From assembly GCF_000745475.1 (NCBI RefSeq), contig NZ_JQJJ01000010.1:744001-808000 (forward strand): a stretch of DNA of 64,000 nt, read 5' to 3'. This DNA is from Allobosea sp. UNC402CLCol (GTDB lineage: Bacteria > Pseudomonadota > Alphaproteobacteria > Rhizobiales > Beijerinckiaceae). Each line of letters opens with the position of its first letter. Within the stretch, counting starts at the first letter, position 1. The position numbers and the translations under genes are program-made. The notes below the pieces were generated by a model. The model had not been told where the DNA came from, searched no databases, and saw only the letters and a list, made by a program, of their open reading frames with translations. Positions 4,592 to 11,225 of this stretch are shown here, piece by piece.

Positions 4592-5080
4592 TCACTCCTC
4601 CTTGAAGCCGTAATCGGGAATGCCCTGCTCGTTGCCGTAGTACTTGTACGGCAGGAATTTGCCCGACATGCCGATCTTGACCCGGTCTCCCTTCGGATTG
4701 GGCTCGCGCTCGAACGAGATGTTGAAATCGATCGCGGACATGATCCCGTCGCCGAATTCCTCCTCGATCAGCGCCTTCCAGGCCGGCCCGTTGACCATCA
4801 CCATCTCGTAGAAGCGGTAGATCAGCGGGTCGGTCGGCGGCATCGGCGTGCCGGTGCCGCGATAGGGCACCTCGTTGAGCATGCGCTTTTCGTTCTCGGA
4901 CAGGCCGAACAGCGCGGCTGCGCGCTCGGCCAGCGGCCGGACCAGCTTCATCTGGCCGAGCAGCGCGCCGACCACCAGCACCTCGGACATGCCGCCGATC
5001 TCTTCGGTGATGTATTTCCAGCTCCAGCCCTTCTCGCGCTTGATGTCGAGAATCTTCTCGGTCAGCTCTTCGCGCTTCAT
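4592..5080 (-). CDS. cynS: Cyanate hydratase (cyanase)
   Basis: 162 residues from ATG 5080, preceded by GGAGAGGG at a good distance. It catalyses bicarbonate-dependent breakdown of cyanate to ammonia and carbon dioxide in the cytoplasm as a decamer. The N-terminal helical DNA-binding-like domain (KREELTEKILDIKREKGWSW) and C-terminal catalytic domain are complete. The catalytic triad known from E. coli (R96, E99, S122) is present as R89 and E92 in YRFYEM and S115 in GIMSAIDF. No CynR regulator, carbonic anhydrase or cyanate transporter is adjacent, so it stands alone, possibly for detoxification or nitrogen supply. Confidence 0.97.
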   Translation of the reverse strand: MKREELTEKILDIKREKGWSWKYITEEIGGMSEVLVVGALLGQMKLVRPLAERAAALFGLSENEKRMLNEVPYRGTGTPMPPTDPLIYRFYEMVMVNGPAWKALIEEEFGDGIMSAIDFNISFEREPNPKGDRVKIGMSGKFLPYKYYGNEQGIPDYGFKEE

Positions 5081-5277
5081 CGTCACCCTCTCCGGACACC
5101 TTGACCGCCAGAGCTCAGGCAAGGATCGGGCCGGTGCCCGGATGACGCAGGGTTTCGTCGATCGCGGCAGGATCGTCTTAACGTTATGATGAAGTAGGGT
5201 TCGCGCACTAAGGCATTTGAAGTTTTTTTCTCGGCATCTGGAGGCTGAAAAACGACGCAGGAAAGCCCGGCACGGCG

Positions 5278-5646
5278 ATGAGTTCCTATATTCCCCTGAT
5301 CCTGTTCACGGTGCTGACCAATGCGGCGGCGCAACTCATGCTCAAGCGCGGCATGAGCAGTTTCGGCTCCTTCGACATCGCCGGCGACGGGATCGTCGCC
5401 ACAGTTTTCCGGGTCGTCTTCAACCCGTTCGTCTTCGCGGGCCTGTGCACCTTCGTCGTCAGCATGGCCTCGCATCTGGTCGTGCTGTCCAAGGTGCAGA
5501 TCAGTTACGCCTACCCGTTCCTGAGCCTCGCCTATGTCGTGGTCGCGGCCTATGCCTATTTCGCCTTCCATGAGGATCTGAGCCCGAGCCGCATCGCCGG
5601 CATCGGCTTCATCGTCATCGGCACCATCTTCATCGCACAAAGCTGA
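5278..5646 (+). CDS. SMR/EamA-type small multispan protein, possible lipid-sugar flippase
   Basis: 122 residues with four hydrophobic helices, the size of a small multidrug resistance (EmrE/ArnE) subunit. The first helix holds TNAAAQLMLKRGM, the position where SMR proteins carry their ion-coupling glutamate, but no Glu is present there. This resembles the ArnE/ArnF lipid-linked-aminoarabinose flippase group more than drug pumps. It is the first gene of a + strand operon with a 40-codon ORF, an SDR and an aminotransferase. With the polyprenyl-sugar enzymes at 8731-10931 nearby, a role in flipping an undecaprenyl-linked sugar is a reasonable inference. Confidence 0.75.
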   Translation: MSSYIPLILFTVLTNAAAQLMLKRGMSSFGSFDIAGDGIVATVFRVVFNPFVFAGLCTFVVSMASHLVVLSKVQISYAYPFLSLAYVVVAAYAYFAFHEDLSPSRIAGIGFIVIGTIFIAQS

Positions 5647-5654
5647 GGGGTACC

Positions 5655-5777
5655 ATGGACCTGATCGTTCGCCTGTTCCTGCGCCTCGGCGCCCTGTTCG
5701 AGCCGCGGCCCGAAACCATGCTGACGCCGGTTCCCGTGCCGGTGCGGGTTCGTCCGGCGCCCCGGTCGCGCCGATAG
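5655..5777 (+). CDS. Putative 40-residue operon peptide
   Basis: ATG 5655 has GAGGGG directly before it and the frame ends at TAG 5777, nine bases before the SDR start. The predicted peptide has an amphipathic start (MDLIVRLFLRLGALFEP) and a proline/arginine-rich tail (PVPVPVRVRPAPRSRR). It fills the gap between the flippase-like gene and the SDR exactly, in the same direction. It could be a real small membrane-associated protein or merely a coupling leader. No homologue is known to me. Confidence 0.45.
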   Translation: MDLIVRLFLRLGALFEPRPETMLTPVPVPVRVRPAPRSRR

Positions 5778-5786
5778 GAGCCGGTC

Positions 5787-6791
5787 ATGAAGCATATCAT
5801 CATCGGCGGCGACGGCTTCGTCGGCTCGCGCCTGGCGGCTGATCTCGCGGCGATGGGCGAGGACGTCCTCGTCGCGGACATCCACAAGAGCAGCCATGCG
5901 CATTACGCCAAGGTGCCCTTCGTCCAGATCGACGTGACCAAGGCGGAGAGCGTGGACACGATCCCGCTCTCGCCTGAAGACGTGGTCTACAACCTTTCGG
6001 CCAAGATGCTCTCGCCGATCGTCACGCGGGCCGAGCGGCACGATTTCTTCTGGCCGGTCAATTTTCACGGCACGCAGAACATCCTGAGCTGGATGGAGAA
6101 GCGCGGCGCCGACCGGCTGGTGCATTTCACCACGGATATGATCTACGGCCATTCGGTCACGGTGCCGCAGGACGAAACCCATCCCGCGCATCCGCTCGGC
6201 GAATATGGCGAGAGCAAGCTCGCGACCGAGCGGCTCGCCGAGGAATACCGCGCCAAGGGCTTCAAGATCCCGATCTTCCGGCCGCGACTCATCATCGGGC
6301 CCGGCCGGCTCGGCATCCTGGTGAAGCTGTTCAAGCTGATCGACCTCAACCTGCCGGTGCCGATGATCGGCTCGGGGCGTAATCCCTACCAGTTCATCTC
6401 GGTGTTCGACTGCGCCAGCGCCTGTGTCTGCGCCTGGAAGGCGGGCTTCCCGAACGAGGCCTATAATCTCGGCTCCGACGAGCCGCCGCCGGTGAAGAAG
6501 CTGCTCGGCGACCTGATCAAGCATGCCGGCTCGAAATCGATCCTGCTGCCGACGCCGGCCTCGCTGGTGAAGCTCACGCTCGATGCGCTCGACGCGGTGA
6601 ACATGCCGATCATGGATCCCGAGCAATACAAGATCGCCGACGAGATCTGTATTCTCGACACGTCCAAGGCCAAGCGCGAGCTCGGCTGGCACCCGAAATA
6701 CCGCGACGAGGACATGCTGCTCGCCGCCTATACCGAGTATCGCAAGGGCAAGGACGCCCACAAACAGGCGCAGAGGAGCCTCGCCGCATGA
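5787..6791 (+). CDS. Extended SDR, NAD-dependent epimerase/dehydratase
   Basis: 334 residues with the Rossmann glycine motif GGDGFVG at 7-13, the catalytic pair Y140/K144 (EYGESK) and a preceding FTTD segment. These are hallmarks of the extended short-chain dehydrogenases that act on nucleotide sugars or lipid-linked sugars. AGGAG sits seven bases upstream of ATG 5787. Its stop overlaps the aminotransferase start by four bases (ATGA at 6788), so the two are translated together. It may oxidise or epimerise a sugar that the aminotransferase then aminates. The exact substrate is not readable. Confidence 0.85.
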   Translation: MKHIIIGGDGFVGSRLAADLAAMGEDVLVADIHKSSHAHYAKVPFVQIDVTKAESVDTIPLSPEDVVYNLSAKMLSPIVTRAERHDFFWPVNFHGTQNILSWMEKRGADRLVHFTTDMIYGHSVTVPQDETHPAHPLGEYGESKLATERLAEEYRAKGFKIPIFRPRLIIGPGRLGILVKLFKLIDLNLPVPMIGSGRNPYQFISVFDCASACVCAWKAGFPNEAYNLGSDEPPPVKKLLGDLIKHAGSKSILLPTPASLVKLTLDALDAVNMPIMDPEQYKIADEICILDTSKAKRELGWHPKYRDEDMLLAAYTEYRKGKDAHKQAQRSLAA

Positions 6792-8236
6792 GCATGCCCG
6801 CTTTCAGCCAGGAGGATGCGCCGGTGAGCGGAGCGCGCCCGCAACTCATCAGCGTCGAGGCTGCCAAGCAGCTCGACGCCGCCCAGGTGAAGGATTTCTT
6901 TGCCGCCCATATCAACCCCGGCCAGCTTCATTTCCTCAAGCTGCTCGGCTTCGACAAGATCCTCGTCGATCGCGCCGAGGGCCTGCACTACATCACCAAG
7001 GACGGCCGCAAGATCCTCGATTTCTTCGGCGGCTTCTGCTCGGTCGCCTTCGGCCACAACCATCCGCGCATCATCGCGGCCCGGCAGAAGTTCCAGGACG
7101 AGAACCGCCATGAGATCTGCATGGCGTTCATGTCGCAATACGCGGCGGCGCTGGCGAAGAACCTTGCCACCATCGCGCCGGGCGATCTCGACATGGTCTT
7201 CCTCGGCTCGACCGGCTCGGAGGCGATGGAGGCGGCGCTGAAGGTCGCGGAGCAGGCGCAGGGTCCGGGCAAGTCCAAGATCCTGCATGCGGCGAACTCG
7301 TTCCACGGCAAGACCAAGGGCGTGCTCTCGGTCACCGATTCGACGCTCTACCAGTCGCAGTTCAAGCTGGTCGAGAACCGCGTCAAGGTGCCCTTCGGCG
7401 ACATCCATGCGGTCCGGCAGGCGCTGGAGAACGACCCCTCGATCGGCATCGTCGTGATGGAGACGATCCAGGGCGGCGGCGGCATCGTCGAGGCGCCCGA
7501 GGGTTTCTGGCGCGAGTTGCGCGCGCTCTGCGACAAGCACGGCGTGCTCTGGGTCGCGGACGAGGTGCAGTGCGGGCTTGGCCGCACTGGCCAATTCTTC
7601 GCCTTCGAGCGCGACGGGGTGGTGCCGGATGTGACCGCGCTCGCCAAGGCGCTCGGCGGCTCCAAGGCGGCGATGGGCGCGATGATCGCTCGCCGCGAGA
7701 TCTACATGAAGGCCTATGGCAAGCCGAAGACCGCGCTGATCCATGCGCAGGCGACTTTTGGCGGCATGGGTGAGGCCTGCGTCTCCGCCATCGAGGCCCT
7801 CAACGTCCTCTATGACGAGGATCTGATGGGCAATGCGAAGCGGCAGGGCGACTATCTGATCGAGCGCCTGAACGGCCTGCGAGCGAAATACCCGACGCTG
7901 CTCAAGGAAATCCGCGGGCGCGGGCTGATGATCGGCATCGAGTTCCAGGACATCAGCGAGACCATGCCTTTCGGGGTCAAGCACATGGTCGCGTTGCTCG
8001 ACGACAAGCTGAAGGGCTCGCTCTGCGGCTTCGTCGGCGCGCTCTTGCTGAAGGAGCACGACGTGCTCGTCGCCTTCACCGAATACAACCGCAACGTCAT
8101 CCGCCTCGAGCCGCCATTGATCGTCACGCGCGAGCAGTGCGATCAGTTCCTCGCGGCGTTCGAGGATGTGCTGTTGCGCGGCGTCACCGGCATCGTCACC
8201 GGCTACCTGCGCAAGGTCGCTGCCGCCAAGGGCTGA
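6788..8236 (+). CDS. Class III PLP-dependent aminotransferase
   Basis: 482 residues. The fold-type I class III pattern is complete: STGSEAMEAALK (141-152) for the PLP phosphate, ADEVQCGLGRTG with D258, and the Schiff-base lysine K287 in ALAKALGG. It has an unusual N-terminal extension (AQVKDFFAAHINPGQLHFLKLLGFD) compared with acetylornithine/ornithine aminotransferases. The SDR upstream overlaps its start, pointing to an oxidised sugar or polyol as amino acceptor. HpnO of aminohopanoid synthesis belongs to the same class, so a hopanoid role is an alternative, although no other hopanoid gene is present. A bidirectional terminator follows. Confidence 0.88.
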   Translation: MSMPAFSQEDAPVSGARPQLISVEAAKQLDAAQVKDFFAAHINPGQLHFLKLLGFDKILVDRAEGLHYITKDGRKILDFFGGFCSVAFGHNHPRIIAARQKFQDENRHEICMAFMSQYAAALAKNLATIAPGDLDMVFLGSTGSEAMEAALKVAEQAQGPGKSKILHAANSFHGKTKGVLSVTDSTLYQSQFKLVENRVKVPFGDIHAVRQALENDPSIGIVVMETIQGGGGIVEAPEGFWRELRALCDKHGVLWVADEVQCGLGRTGQFFAFERDGVVPDVTALAKALGGSKAAMGAMIARREIYMKAYGKPKTALIHAQATFGGMGEACVSAIEALNVLYDEDLMGNAKRQGDYLIERLNGLRAKYPTLLKEIRGRGLMIGIEFQDISETMPFGVKHMVALLDDKLKGSLCGFVGALLLKEHDVLVAFTEYNRNVIRLEPPLIVTREQCDQFLAAFEDVLLRGVTGIVTGYLRKVAAAKG

Positions 8237-8260
8237 GCGCCCCGATCGACCCGCAACAAA

Positions 8261-8287
8261 AAAGAGGCCGGCGTAAGCCGGCCTTTT
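8261..8287. terminator. Bidirectional rho-independent terminator
   Basis: Perfect 8-bp stem AGGCCGGC/GCCGGCCT (8265-8272 and 8277-8284) with a GTAA loop, followed by TTTT on the + strand and preceded by an A-run (8258-8263) that gives a T-run on the - strand. It sits between the convergent aminotransferase and the small secreted protein gene, serving both. Confidence 0.85.
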
Positions 8288-8324
8288 GAGTCTGGGGTCT
8301 CGAAACAGGGGCGTCCAGGGAAGC

Positions 8325-8621
8325 TCAGTAGTAGCCGCAGACCCGGCGGTAGCCGATGACGTTGCCCCAGCGGTCGAAGCGCTCGACCAGGTCGCAGGAG
8401 CGAACGGGGGCAGGAGCGTCATAGTAGCCGTAGCCATAGGCGGGGCGGGTGGCGCCGGCGATGATCGCGCCTGCGGCGAGCGCGCCGACCACACCGGCTC
8501 CGACGCCCCAGCCATAGCCCCGGTGCCAGCGCGGGCGCGCTTCGGCGCCGGACGCGATCAAGGTGGTGGCCAGGGTCACGGCCGCGAGGGTCGCGGTCAG
8601 CGTCTTGCGGAACGTGGTCAT
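8325..8621 (-). CDS. Small exported glycine-rich protein
   Basis: 98 residues from ATG 8621. A signal peptide (residues 1-28, ending GAEA) is followed by RPRWHRGYGWG, a glycine/alanine hydrophobic stretch (GAGVVGALAAGAIIAGA) resembling a glycine-zipper segment, and a tail with two cysteines (SCDLVERFDRWGNVIGYRRVCGYY). This layout is common among periplasmic or surface proteins of Hyphomicrobiales with no defined function. It is transcribed alone. Confidence 0.75.
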   Translation of the reverse strand: MTTFRKTLTATLAAVTLATTLIASGAEARPRWHRGYGWGVGAGVVGALAAGAIIAGATRPAYGYGYYDAPAPVRSCDLVERFDRWGNVIGYRRVCGYY

Positions 8622-8730
8622 GCTCGTCTCTCCCGATCGTTGCGAGAGCGAAGGTCTCGCTCTTCATGCTCATTGGTCGCAGGGAGGAGCGGGGAGGTTC
8701 AAAGGCGGTGACGATTATTTTCGCGCGGCC

Positions 8731-10044
8731 TCAGCCGTCGCTGACACGGCGCCAGAAATCCGAGGAGAAGCCGGGATCGATATGAGTGGCGAAATCGCGC
8801 CATTGCGGAAAGGAGGCCTGGAAGGTCGCCGCCGACATGCGGGCATCCTTGTAGGGGTTCACCCGGCCCCCGGCCTCGATCGCGATCCGGTCCAATTCCG
8901 TCAGCAGCGCCTCGGTCCGGGCGCCGCGATTGGGGAAATCGAGCGTCAGCGTCGCGCCCTGGATCGGGAAGGACATCAGCCCCGGCGAGCGCTTGGCGCC
9001 GAAGAGCTTGAGCACGGTCAGGAACGAGGCCTCGCCGGCAGCGAGCGTCCGGCTCAGCATCTCCTCGACGGCGCGGCGGGCGCCGGCCATCGGCACGGCG
9101 CATTGGAACTGCCTCAGGCCCTGCGGGCCATAGGCGCGGTTCCAGTCGCGGATCCGGTCGAGCGGGTAGAAGAACGGCCGATAAGGCACACGCCGTGGCG
9201 CCGCCCCGCGCGGCTGGCTGTGACGATAGAGCCAGTTGAAGGCACTGAGCGTCACCCGGTTAATCAGGGGAAAGGGTGGTTCGATCGGAAAGCGCAGGTT
9301 GCGGCCGGGCTGTGGCGGCAGGAAGCCGAAATCGGGCGCATGGTTGGCGCGGAAGAAGACGCCGCGGCCGAAGTGCCGGCCGCTGGCGAGGGCGTCGATC
9401 CAGGCCACGGTGTAGTCATGCGTCGAGTCGGATTCGGCGGCCAGTCCGAAGAAGCCGTCGAGGCTGTCGAAATGCAGGACCTCCTGCTCCATTGCGGCCG
9501 AGCGGATCGGCATGAGCTGGAGCGTCACCTGCGTGATGAGCCCGGTCAGCCCGAAGCCTCCGATGGTGGCGGCGAAGAGATCGGCATTCATGTCCGGCGC
9601 GCAAAGGATGCGCTGGCCGTCGGAGCGCATCAGCTCGAAGGCGCGGACATGGCAGCCGAAAGTGCCGGCGGCATGATGGTTCTTGCCATGGACGTCGTTG
9701 GCGAGCGCGCCGCCGATGGTCACGAAGCTCGTTCCGGGCGTGACGCAGGGGAACCAGCCGGCCGGAACCACGATATCGAGCAGGCGGTCGAGCAGGAGCC
9801 CCGCGCCGCAGGTCAGCAGGCCGGTTTCCCGGTCGAAGGTCTGGACGTTGGCGAGCGAACGCGCATCGATCAGCGAGCCCCGGCTGTTCAGGCAGGAATC
9901 GCCATAGGAGCGGCCATTGCCGTAGGCGAGGACGGGGCGGCGGAAGCGATCGGGCCGCTCGATCCAGTCAGCCGCATCGACGATCTCGCTGCCCTGCGCC
10001 GAGAGCCCGCCCCAGGAGCGATACGCGCCGCGGGGGACGGTCAT
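8731..10044 (-). CDS. DprE1-like FAD-dependent polyprenylphosphoryl-ribose oxidase
   Basis: 437 residues. An N-terminal FAD_binding_4 domain carries YGNGRSYGD (the flavin pyrophosphate loop) and DVHGKNHHAAGTFGCHV, nearly the same as the active-site segment of mycobacterial DprE1. The C-terminal domain ends with NPYKDARMSAATF, where the lysine matches DprE1 K418. By analogy it oxidises the 2-hydroxyl of a polyprenylphosphoryl-ribose to the keto form. The benzothiazinone-reactive Cys387 of Mycobacterium aligns with a threonine (LTLDFP) here. Its ATG overlaps the UbiA gene stop by four bases, so both are made together. The DprE2 reductase partner is not obvious nearby. Confidence 0.87.
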   Translation of the reverse strand: MTVPRGAYRSWGGLSAQGSEIVDAADWIERPDRFRRPVLAYGNGRSYGDSCLNSRGSLIDARSLANVQTFDRETGLLTCGAGLLLDRLLDIVVPAGWFPCVTPGTSFVTIGGALANDVHGKNHHAAGTFGCHVRAFELMRSDGQRILCAPDMNADLFAATIGGFGLTGLITQVTLQLMPIRSAAMEQEVLHFDSLDGFFGLAAESDSTHDYTVAWIDALASGRHFGRGVFFRANHAPDFGFLPPQPGRNLRFPIEPPFPLINRVTLSAFNWLYRHSQPRGAAPRRVPYRPFFYPLDRIRDWNRAYGPQGLRQFQCAVPMAGARRAVEEMLSRTLAAGEASFLTVLKLFGAKRSPGLMSFPIQGATLTLDFPNRGARTEALLTELDRIAIEAGGRVNPYKDARMSAATFQASFPQWRDFATHIDPGFSSDFWRRVSDG

Positions 10045-10931
10045 GGCAGGATCGTCGCCAGGACCATGATGGCGATGACGACGAGGCCCATGAGCTGGCT
10101 GCGCCAGTCGCGGATCATGAAGACCAGCGGATCGTCGGGCATGCCGCCACGGCGGGCCATGAACCAGATGCGCGCCATCTGGTAGAGGACGATCGGGCAG
10201 AGCAGCCAGATCAGCTCGGGGTGGCGGTAGAGCTGCTTCACGTTGGCGCTGTCGACATAGAGCGCCATGATCAGCGCACAGGTGCAGCCCGAGGCCATGC
10301 CGAGCTGCGAGAGCGCCTCGATATCCTCGACCTGATAGCCGCGCCCGGCCTTCTTCAGGCCGGACTGGTCCGCGGTGATGCGCAATTCGGCATAGCGCTT
10401 CACCAGTGCGAGGCTGAGGAAGAGGAACATCGAGAAGGCCAATAGCCAGGACGAGATCGGGACGGCCGCGGCCGCGTTGCCGGCCAGGATGCGCAGCGTG
10501 TGCATCGCCGCCAGGCCGAGAACGTCGACCAGCAGCCTGCGCTTGAGAAAGAGGAGATAGGTCAGCGCCAGGAAGAGATAGGCCAGCAGCGCCAGCATGA
10601 AGCTCTGTGGCTGCGGCACGAGAAGGACGGTCGAGAACGCGGCGAGCAGGAGCACGGGCACCGCGGCGTAGGCCTGGGCGGCGGTGATCTCGCCGGCGGC
10701 GAGGGGGCGCTTGCGCTTGGTCGGATGCAGGCGATCCGCCTCGACATCCTTGATGTCGTTGAGGAGATAGATCGCGGAGGCGATCAGGCTGAAGGCGATG
10801 AAAGCGATGACACCGTGCCAGAGGGCCGCCGGGTCGAAGACATCGTGATTAAGCAGGATCGGGACGAAGACGAGCCCGTTCTTGAGCCAGTGATGGGGGC
10901 GCATGGCCCGGATCATGGCGGACGCAGACAT
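10041..10931 (-). CDS. UbiA-family prenyltransferase, 5-phosphoribosyl-polyprenol synthase type
   Basis: 296 residues from ATG 10931 with GGGAG about 8 bases upstream. It has about eight or nine membrane helices, the first Asp-rich motif NDIKDVEADRLHP (58-70) and the basic KRKRPLAAG that follows it. RPHHWLKNGLVF at the N-terminus is typical of the Rv3806c/NoeC group, which joins phosphoribosyl pyrophosphate to a polyprenyl phosphate in the inner membrane. Being the first gene of an overlapping pair with a DprE1-like oxidase strongly supports this sub-family over ubiquinone or haem UbiA proteins. Confidence 0.88.
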   Translation of the reverse strand: MSASAMIRAMRPHHWLKNGLVFVPILLNHDVFDPAALWHGVIAFIAFSLIASAIYLLNDIKDVEADRLHPTKRKRPLAAGEITAAQAYAAVPVLLLAAFSTVLLVPQPQSFMLALLAYLFLALTYLLFLKRRLLVDVLGLAAMHTLRILAGNAAAAVPISSWLLAFSMFLFLSLALVKRYAELRITADQSGLKKAGRGYQVEDIEALSQLGMASGCTCALIMALYVDSANVKQLYRHPELIWLLCPIVLYQMARIWFMARRGGMPDDPLVFMIRDWRSQLMGLVVIAIMVLATILP

Positions 10932-11225
10932 GTTCGGGCTCCCAGCGCTCCTGCGACATGCGCTGCTTCCCGCCGTACGGGGTAGCAACGGCCGGTTGTA
11001 CCGGCGCCGGGGTTTTGAGCTGAAAACTCCTAAGCTGACGTGCATGAGCCGCAAAAACGGGCAATGAATTCAACGCCATGCTTAACGGGCGGCTTCCATG
11101 ATCGCGGAAACCGGCTCCGGAGGCCAAGACGGCTCCGGGGCGTCGGGCATGGACGCTGCTGCCCATGCCCGTCATTCGTTACGCCGCGGGCGCGCGCAGC
11201 AGCCGCCGAGCGAAGCGAGGTCGGC
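10932..11225. other. Intergenic region with probable promoter for the UbiA operon
   Basis: No coding potential that I trust. The part nearest the UbiA start (10990-11100) is less GC-rich than its surroundings and is the likely promoter side for the - strand UbiA/DprE1-like pair. The part near 11180-11225 is the 3' flank of the DUF533 gene and is strongly GC-rich, without a clear T-tailed hairpin. Confidence 0.4.

Follow-up and report, generated by a model that had tools for sequence, protein, structure and literature searches.

A putative lipid-linked amino-pentofuranose locus in Allobosea, with an aminotransferase proposed in place of DprE2

Introduction

The locus described here lies in a 64,000-nucleotide stretch of Allobosea sp. 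UNC402CLCol (contig NZ_JQJJ01000010.1, positions 744,001 to 808,000; hereafter the window) and encodes a UbiA-type prenyltransferase, a DprE1-like oxidase, a small membrane protein of SMR type, an extended short-chain dehydrogenase/reductase (SDR) and a class III aminotransferase (AT). We propose, with a probability of roughly two in three, that it makes a polyprenyl-phosphate-linked amino-pentofuranose and that AT replaces the DprE2 step. With the mycobacterial decaprenylphosphoryl-arabinose pathway (Rv3806c, DprE1, DprE2 and Rv3789) the locus shares a UbiA-type phosphoribosyltransferase and a DprE1 that keeps most of the residues checked; it differs in that no DprE2 was detected in its genome, which has AT and the extended SDR instead, and in its ArnE/F-like small protein, where the mycobacterial transporter is of the GtrA family. 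The Arn pathway, which builds undecaprenyl-phosphate-4-amino-4-deoxy-L-arabinose, takes its carbon from UDP-glucuronate, aminates the UDP-sugar with ArnB, and employs ArnE/F as flippase and ArnT as transferase. Our locus resembles it in the logic of a lipid-linked amino-pentose, in the ArnE/F-like protein and in ArnT being the top structural match of one neighbouring family of glycosyltransferase C (GT-C) type, but its carbon would come from phosphoribosyl pyrophosphate (PRPP), and amination is proposed to occur at C2, on the lipid, by a class III enzyme.

The three-component pentofuranose systems of Citrobacter youngae O1 and O2, as set out in the main text of PMC11127046, have a HAD phosphatase and UbiA synthase in common with relatives of our locus, and have counterparts there to its auxiliary SDR, proposed flippase and candidate GT-C enzyme; the locus adds DprE1 and AT, has an SMR protein instead of MATE, and its candidate transferase in Bosea lies outside the cluster. 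The word “aminotransferase” does not occur in that main text. Rv3789 is termed an SMR-family protein in the same source, so the transporter difference from mycobacteria may be one of subfamily. UDP-N-acetylxylosamine, the product of bacterial UXNAcS, is likewise a 2-amino-2-deoxy-pentose, described in PMC5078965 as a nucleotide sugar made from UDP-GlcNAc via its uronic acid, whereas the route of our locus would be PRPP-derived and on a lipid. A 2-amino-pentose as such is therefore already known; the route and the carrier would be new. The system appears to vary the known DprE1 pathway and the three-component pentofuranose pathways as far as PMC11127046 presents them, with a seemingly new amination branch.

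The open-access literature on arabinosamine and 2-amino-2-deoxy-pentoses held no lipid-linked amino-pentofuranose among the matches listed, and on Bosea lipopolysaccharide the matches listed contained no structure. For DprE1 in Rhizobium or alphaproteobacteria, the matches listed were mycobacterial, corynebacterial and tuberculosis-drug work only; for GT136/PPPRS from 2024 on, PMC11127046 was the sole relevant work among them.

Results and discussion

The locus and its protein families

The nearest genus-named relatives of the locus are Bosea. We call the window and loci L033–L062 Bosea-type, some of these being placed only in Hyphomicrobiales, Rhizobiales, Beijerinckiaceae or Boseaceae. In the window the two gene sets are convergent (ORF, open reading frame; PLP, pyridoxal phosphate):

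5278..5646, + strand: SMR/EamA-type small membrane protein, ArnE/ArnF-like; proposed lipid-linked-sugar flippase (NCBIfam ArnF 5e-15, under cut-off)
5655..5777, + strand: 40-codon ORF, probable Bosea-type microprotein with a hydrophobic start and a Pro/Arg tail
5787..6791, + strand: extended SDR, proposed accessory C3 epimerase of the lipid-linked pentose (PF01370, 4e-38)
6788..8236, + strand: class III PLP aminotransferase (AT), proposed to aminate the DprE1 product (PF00202, 2e-87)
8265..8287, no strand assigned: terminator-like hairpin GGCCGGC/GCCGGCC between the convergent operons, an A-run before it and four T after it, read from the sequence
8731..10044, − strand: DprE1-like flavin oxidase, predicted to act on polyprenyl-phosphate-ribose (M. 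tuberculosis DprE1 match, 2e-70)
10041..10931, − strand: UbiA-type polyprenyl-phosphate phosphoribosyltransferase, predicted (NF006088 above cut-off; PDB 8j8j, 8e-31)

The four-base overlap between the UbiA and DprE1 genes, noted in the original prediction, was present on re-reading, and the facing set of SMR gene, 40-codon ORF, SDR and AT was found again where that prediction had placed it; the SDR and AT frames also share 4 bases. Pfam families scored above their cut-offs for the SDR, AT, DprE1-like (PF01565) and UbiA (PF01040) proteins, and the SMR protein matched Pfam EamA below cut-off. Its best NCBIfam matches were ArnF (55.9 bits, cut-off 99) and ArnE (41.5, cut-off 92), both below, so it is not an Arn equivalog. 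Comparison with PHROGs gave general matches only.

UbiA scored 383.5 against the 351 cut-off of NF006088 and matched the solved DPPR synthase 8j8j, which places it with polyprenyl-phosphate phosphoribosyltransferases; a quinone or haem prenyltransferase, the outcome that would have told against the predicted role, was rejected on these two results. A small UbiA tree adds little, since L002 was the one own paralogue to pass the motif filter and its branch is roughly 10 changes long. The DprE1-like protein reached 331 against the NCBIfam equivalog cut-off of 500 and is hence below it. It conserves the equivalents of M. tuberculosis Y60, H132, K134, K367, K418, Q334 and Q336, and carries Thr for C387, Thr for N385 and Asn for Y415 (M. 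tuberculosis numbering); some of these positions are expected to matter in catalysis. The SDR has GxxGxxG at 7 and Y140xxxK144, and AT carries its PLP lysine, Lys287, within the usual motif. The nearest solved relatives of AT are the PigE-type 4ppm and putrescine aminotransferase.

Two gene sets, one conserved unit

A search with the SDR over 84,980 species genomes yielded 201 relatives; we kept the best 80, in which the SDR is given by construction. AT and SMR adjoin the SDR in 80/80 of these loci (81 with the window counted), and DprE1 lies within the fetched stretch of 71/80 (72 with the window). Where a fetched AT locus lacked DprE1, the gene was recovered elsewhere in the genome in 9/9 cases. 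Mesorhizobium, Nitratireductor, Aureimonas, Jiella and others have a single operon UbiA-DprE1-SMR-SDR-AT, and other lineages show UbiA...SMR-SDR-AT-DprE1, divergent arrangements or SMR-SDR-UbiA-DprE1-AT. In the genome samples introduced below, AT was within 3.3 kb of DprE1 in 11/11 AT genomes; in some other genomes it is elsewhere.

The convergent orientation in the window could suggest two unrelated operons that are neighbours in Bosea by chance. We give this next to no credence, because many other genera carry the genes on one strand as a single operon, because several further arrangements occur, and because every genome re-searched has DprE1; two separate operons were rejected on the shared operons, the nine recoveries and the linkage within 3.3 kb. 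Judged by comparison of gene content and linkage, the UbiA/DprE1 and SMR/SDR/AT sets are one conserved unit, and the predicted co-occurrence of the two sets was borne out, usually as adjacency and in many genera as one operon. In L081 and L083, UbiA-SMR-SDR-AT are kept together and DprE1 is at another genome site.

AT and DprE2 as alternative partners of DprE1

Whole-genome samples comprised 199 genomes of the order (an even sample) and 327 of the class, our own genome being in both. Thresholds in the order sample were E 1e-40 for DprE1, 1e-50 for DprE2 (NF005489), 1e-120 for AT and 1e-60 for the SDR, and in the class sample 1e-40 for DprE2 and 1e-80 for AT; for DprE2, scoring covered 13 first-look candidates per genome in the order sample and 8 in the class sample. 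Of the 199 order genomes, 30 have DprE1, 20 DprE2, 10 AT and 9 the SDR. Every genome with DprE2 or AT was one of the 30 with DprE1, the overlap between the two groups was 0 and their union 30/30. The class sample had DprE1 in 35/327 genomes, DprE2 in 34 and AT in 2 (our own and G437), again with an overlap of 0. Four of its DprE1 genomes lacked a DprE2 call: the two with AT; G304, where a partial DprE2 is cut by the contig end; and G529 (L134), where the 19 kb fetched show neither UbiA nor AT nor DprE2 and the DprE1-like gene (36%) probably has another function. Three genomes (G300, G324, G523) have DprE2 without DprE1. Pooled, the samples contain 64 distinct genomes with DprE1; family search assigns DprE2 to 51 of them, AT is present in 11, and none has both. 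DprE2 is at most 250 bases from DprE1 in 19/20 (order) and 31/31 (class) cases.

The original prediction had seen no dedicated DprE2, and our whole genome agreed: there was no NF005489 match at E 1e-50 or 1e-40, with 13 and 8 of 84 candidates scored. The guess of a lipid-linked amino-pentose is strengthened by the mutual exclusion of AT and DprE2 among DprE1 genomes, although it stays conditional.

A tree was built from 76 DprE1 proteins, 17 of them picked from the window and the 80 SDR-search loci, plus all 59 DprE1 rows of L113–L172; G304, L159 and L168 (the latter two under the tblastn threshold) were set to DprE2 from the family and locus searches, and L094 and L137, which are the same genome (G218), are counted twice here and in the 91 AT loci below. 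The AT label requires 4 changes on this tree, none of 200 bootstrap trees manages with 1, and a single clade of all AT rows was rejected (p 7e-30). Counted as AT against DprE2, the changes number 3 with L132 of G079 and L134 of G529 left out, and 4 with G079 taken as DprE2. In G437, AT neighbours a DprE1 whose clade is distant and dominated by DprE2, and G197, which has AT, groups with two DprE2-type rows. By this comparison, AT and DprE2 appear to have been exchanged more than once.

These genomes also bear on the possibility that the SDR is a non-homologous replacement for DprE2, reducing the 2-ketone to arabinose, with the amination by AT directed at a different position or substrate. The SDR is of oxidoreductase type by family and occurs in 8/10 genome-sample AT loci, but G197 (UbiA-DprE1-AT) and G219 (UbiA-DprE1-SMR-AT) have neither an SDR (E 1e-60) nor DprE2, so the SDR is not the required second enzyme there. 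Conversely, G079, nested in the AT clade without an AT, keeps SMR and SDR and yet has DprE2 on another contig. We consider this alternative unlikely; the two kinds of exception together argue that the DprE2 slot is taken by AT and not by the SDR. The G079 loci L132 and L136 read UbiA-DprE1-SMR-SDR without AT. Should the SDR act as a C3 epimerase, G079 might make a lyxofuranose donor, a sugar that according to the main text of PMC11127046 occurs in no solved carbohydrate structure. A different extended SDR is found near DprE2 in 7/44 DprE2 loci (L113–L118 and L144; for example L115, 10741-11670).

Phosphatase, transporter and transferase candidates

Counts of HAD, SMR and GtrA genes were obtained by tblastn with one or two queries each. 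A HAD domain is present at UbiA in 51/54 AT loci that show UbiA and lie outside the Bosea-type and sister loci, fused to UbiA in those read (L077, L112, L120), and in 0/30 Bosea-type and sister loci. SMR was found in 90/91 AT loci versus 0/44 DprE2 loci, and GtrA, searched with one query, in 0/91 versus 13/44, so that it is not universal in DprE2 loci.

Two membrane-protein families occur near AT in 21 and 14 of the kept SDR-search loci and in none of 31 Bosea-type stretches; one member of each was scanned, with no Pfam or NCBIfam match. Their models have mean predicted local distance difference test (pLDDT) values of 87 and 88. The first is most similar to ArnT, then to oligosaccharyltransferase and AftA (E 2e-5 to 6e-3, template-modelling (TM) score 0.30-0.38), and thus models as GT-C. 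The original prediction had seen no glycosyltransferase. This holds within the 64-kb window for the GT-C families of the relatives, but not for the genome, where a homologue of the first family lies at G000:C12:174110-175744 (1.6e-92, 39%), flanked by unrelated-looking genes; on sequence similarity it is a candidate transferase.

That prediction had also mentioned hopanoids as a possible target of decoration. The sole hint is a weak match of the SDR to HpnA, far under cut-off (66.8 versus 367.65 bits), while the few conserved neighbours examined are GT-C-like membrane proteins or unrelated-looking, a weak counter-argument since no search for hopanoid genes was made. We regard hopanoid decoration as very improbable.

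Proposed pathway

From the comparisons above we infer the following chemistry, product included. UbiA would convert PRPP carbon into polyprenyl-phosphate-ribose-5-phosphate, and a phosphatase, which in most relatives would be the HAD domain found at UbiA, would remove the 5-phosphate. DprE1 is well established in mycobacteria as making a 2-keto sugar, which makes C2 amination the simplest chemistry here: DprE1 would oxidize C2 to the ketone, and AT would aminate it on the lipid to give polyprenyl-phosphate-2-amino-2-deoxy-pentofuranose, in place of the DprE2 reduction to arabinose (the DprE1 epimerisation route is recounted in the main text of PMC11127046). Where present, the SDR probably inverts C3. 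According to the same text, ORF13 of C. youngae O2 is an SDR that inverts C3, its deletion leaving ribofuranose where the side chain otherwise has xylofuranose; a C3 epimerase role for our SDR fits this, and the two proteins have the same kind of motifs, compared at motif level. The SMR protein may then flip the lipid-linked donor, and a GT-C enzyme may move the sugar to a surface glycan.

Many class III aminotransferases act on terminal aldehydes, and AT could instead act at a C5 aldehyde derived from arabinose or ribose to give a 5-amino-5-deoxy-pentose, a reaction with which its PigE-type and putrescine aminotransferase relatives agree. The gene set has no obvious C5 oxidase, however, and amination at C5 would leave the AT/DprE2 exclusion unexplained; we think it improbable. 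We favour, a little less firmly than the AT replacement itself and with only a modest lean, amination at C2 by on-lipid transamination, giving polyprenyl-phosphate 2-amino-2-deoxy-pentofuranose as an undescribed donor, with an exchangeable slot after DprE1 taken by a reductase or an AT and an optional SDR that sets C3.

Several points weigh against the pathway as drawn. Class III enzymes accept not only ketones but also aldehydes, which makes C2 a likely rather than a proven site, and the C3 role of the SDR is an analogy. The SDR, searched alone at E 1e-20, was not found in 8/37 same-genus genomes (our own included in the 37). A HAD phosphatase homologue was not found in our own genome, in a search without a positive control. 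The matches of the transferase models have low TM scores (0.30-0.44), and the second family matches ALG9 (E 0.013) and ALG12 (E 0.015), with none below 0.001. The exclusion of AT and DprE2 would arise by random assortment with a probability of about 1e-10, a figure that overstates the case because related genomes are non-independent. With only 13 or 8 candidates scored per genome, a DprE2 could be overlooked, and only 15/20 and 16/34 DprE2 calls passed the family cut-off, although 50/51 adjoin DprE1. Finally, AT rows minus G437 as one clade were not rejected (p 0.061), so the case for further exchanges besides that of G437 depends on branch supports.

If the reading is right, the DprE1 intermediate would be a branch point from which surface building blocks with arabinose or an amino-pentofuranose are made, which would explain DprE1 without DprE2 in a set of Hyphomicrobiales and would join on-lipid transamination to the known amino-sugar routes. 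Aminoarabinose gives positive surface charge in enteric bacteria, and the present product could likewise make the surface glycans of bacteria from soil and plants positively charged. Carriers of the five-gene set probably bear on their surface an amino-sugar that is made by a new route.

Small reading frames, gene starts and flanking features

An ORF resembling the 40-codon ORF is present in 31/31 Bosea-type loci, in two of which the ORF continues beyond the SDR start; across the family the hydrophobic start hardly changes and the Pro/Arg tail varies. No tblastn match was found in the SDR-search loci outside the Bosea type. It is probably a real microprotein. A second small ORF, Gly/Tyr-rich and secreted-looking (8325-8621, − strand), lies between AT and DprE1 and was left out of the set.

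The start of UbiA may be the ATG at 10931 (codon checked) or lie upstream, the frame being open to a TTG at 11054. Homology to 24 Bosea-type loci by tblastn sets in at various points between residues 1 and 46 of the longer ORF, so the ATG is a provisional start. The promoter/terminator scan reported 0 promoters in the region and 4 terminator-like sites, where 3.7 would be expected, with the hairpin at 8265..8287 on the − strand only, so the case for it as a terminator is weak. Upstream of the SMR gene is a gene (4592-5122, − strand) that we take to be cyanase-like; we saw no link from it to the pathway.

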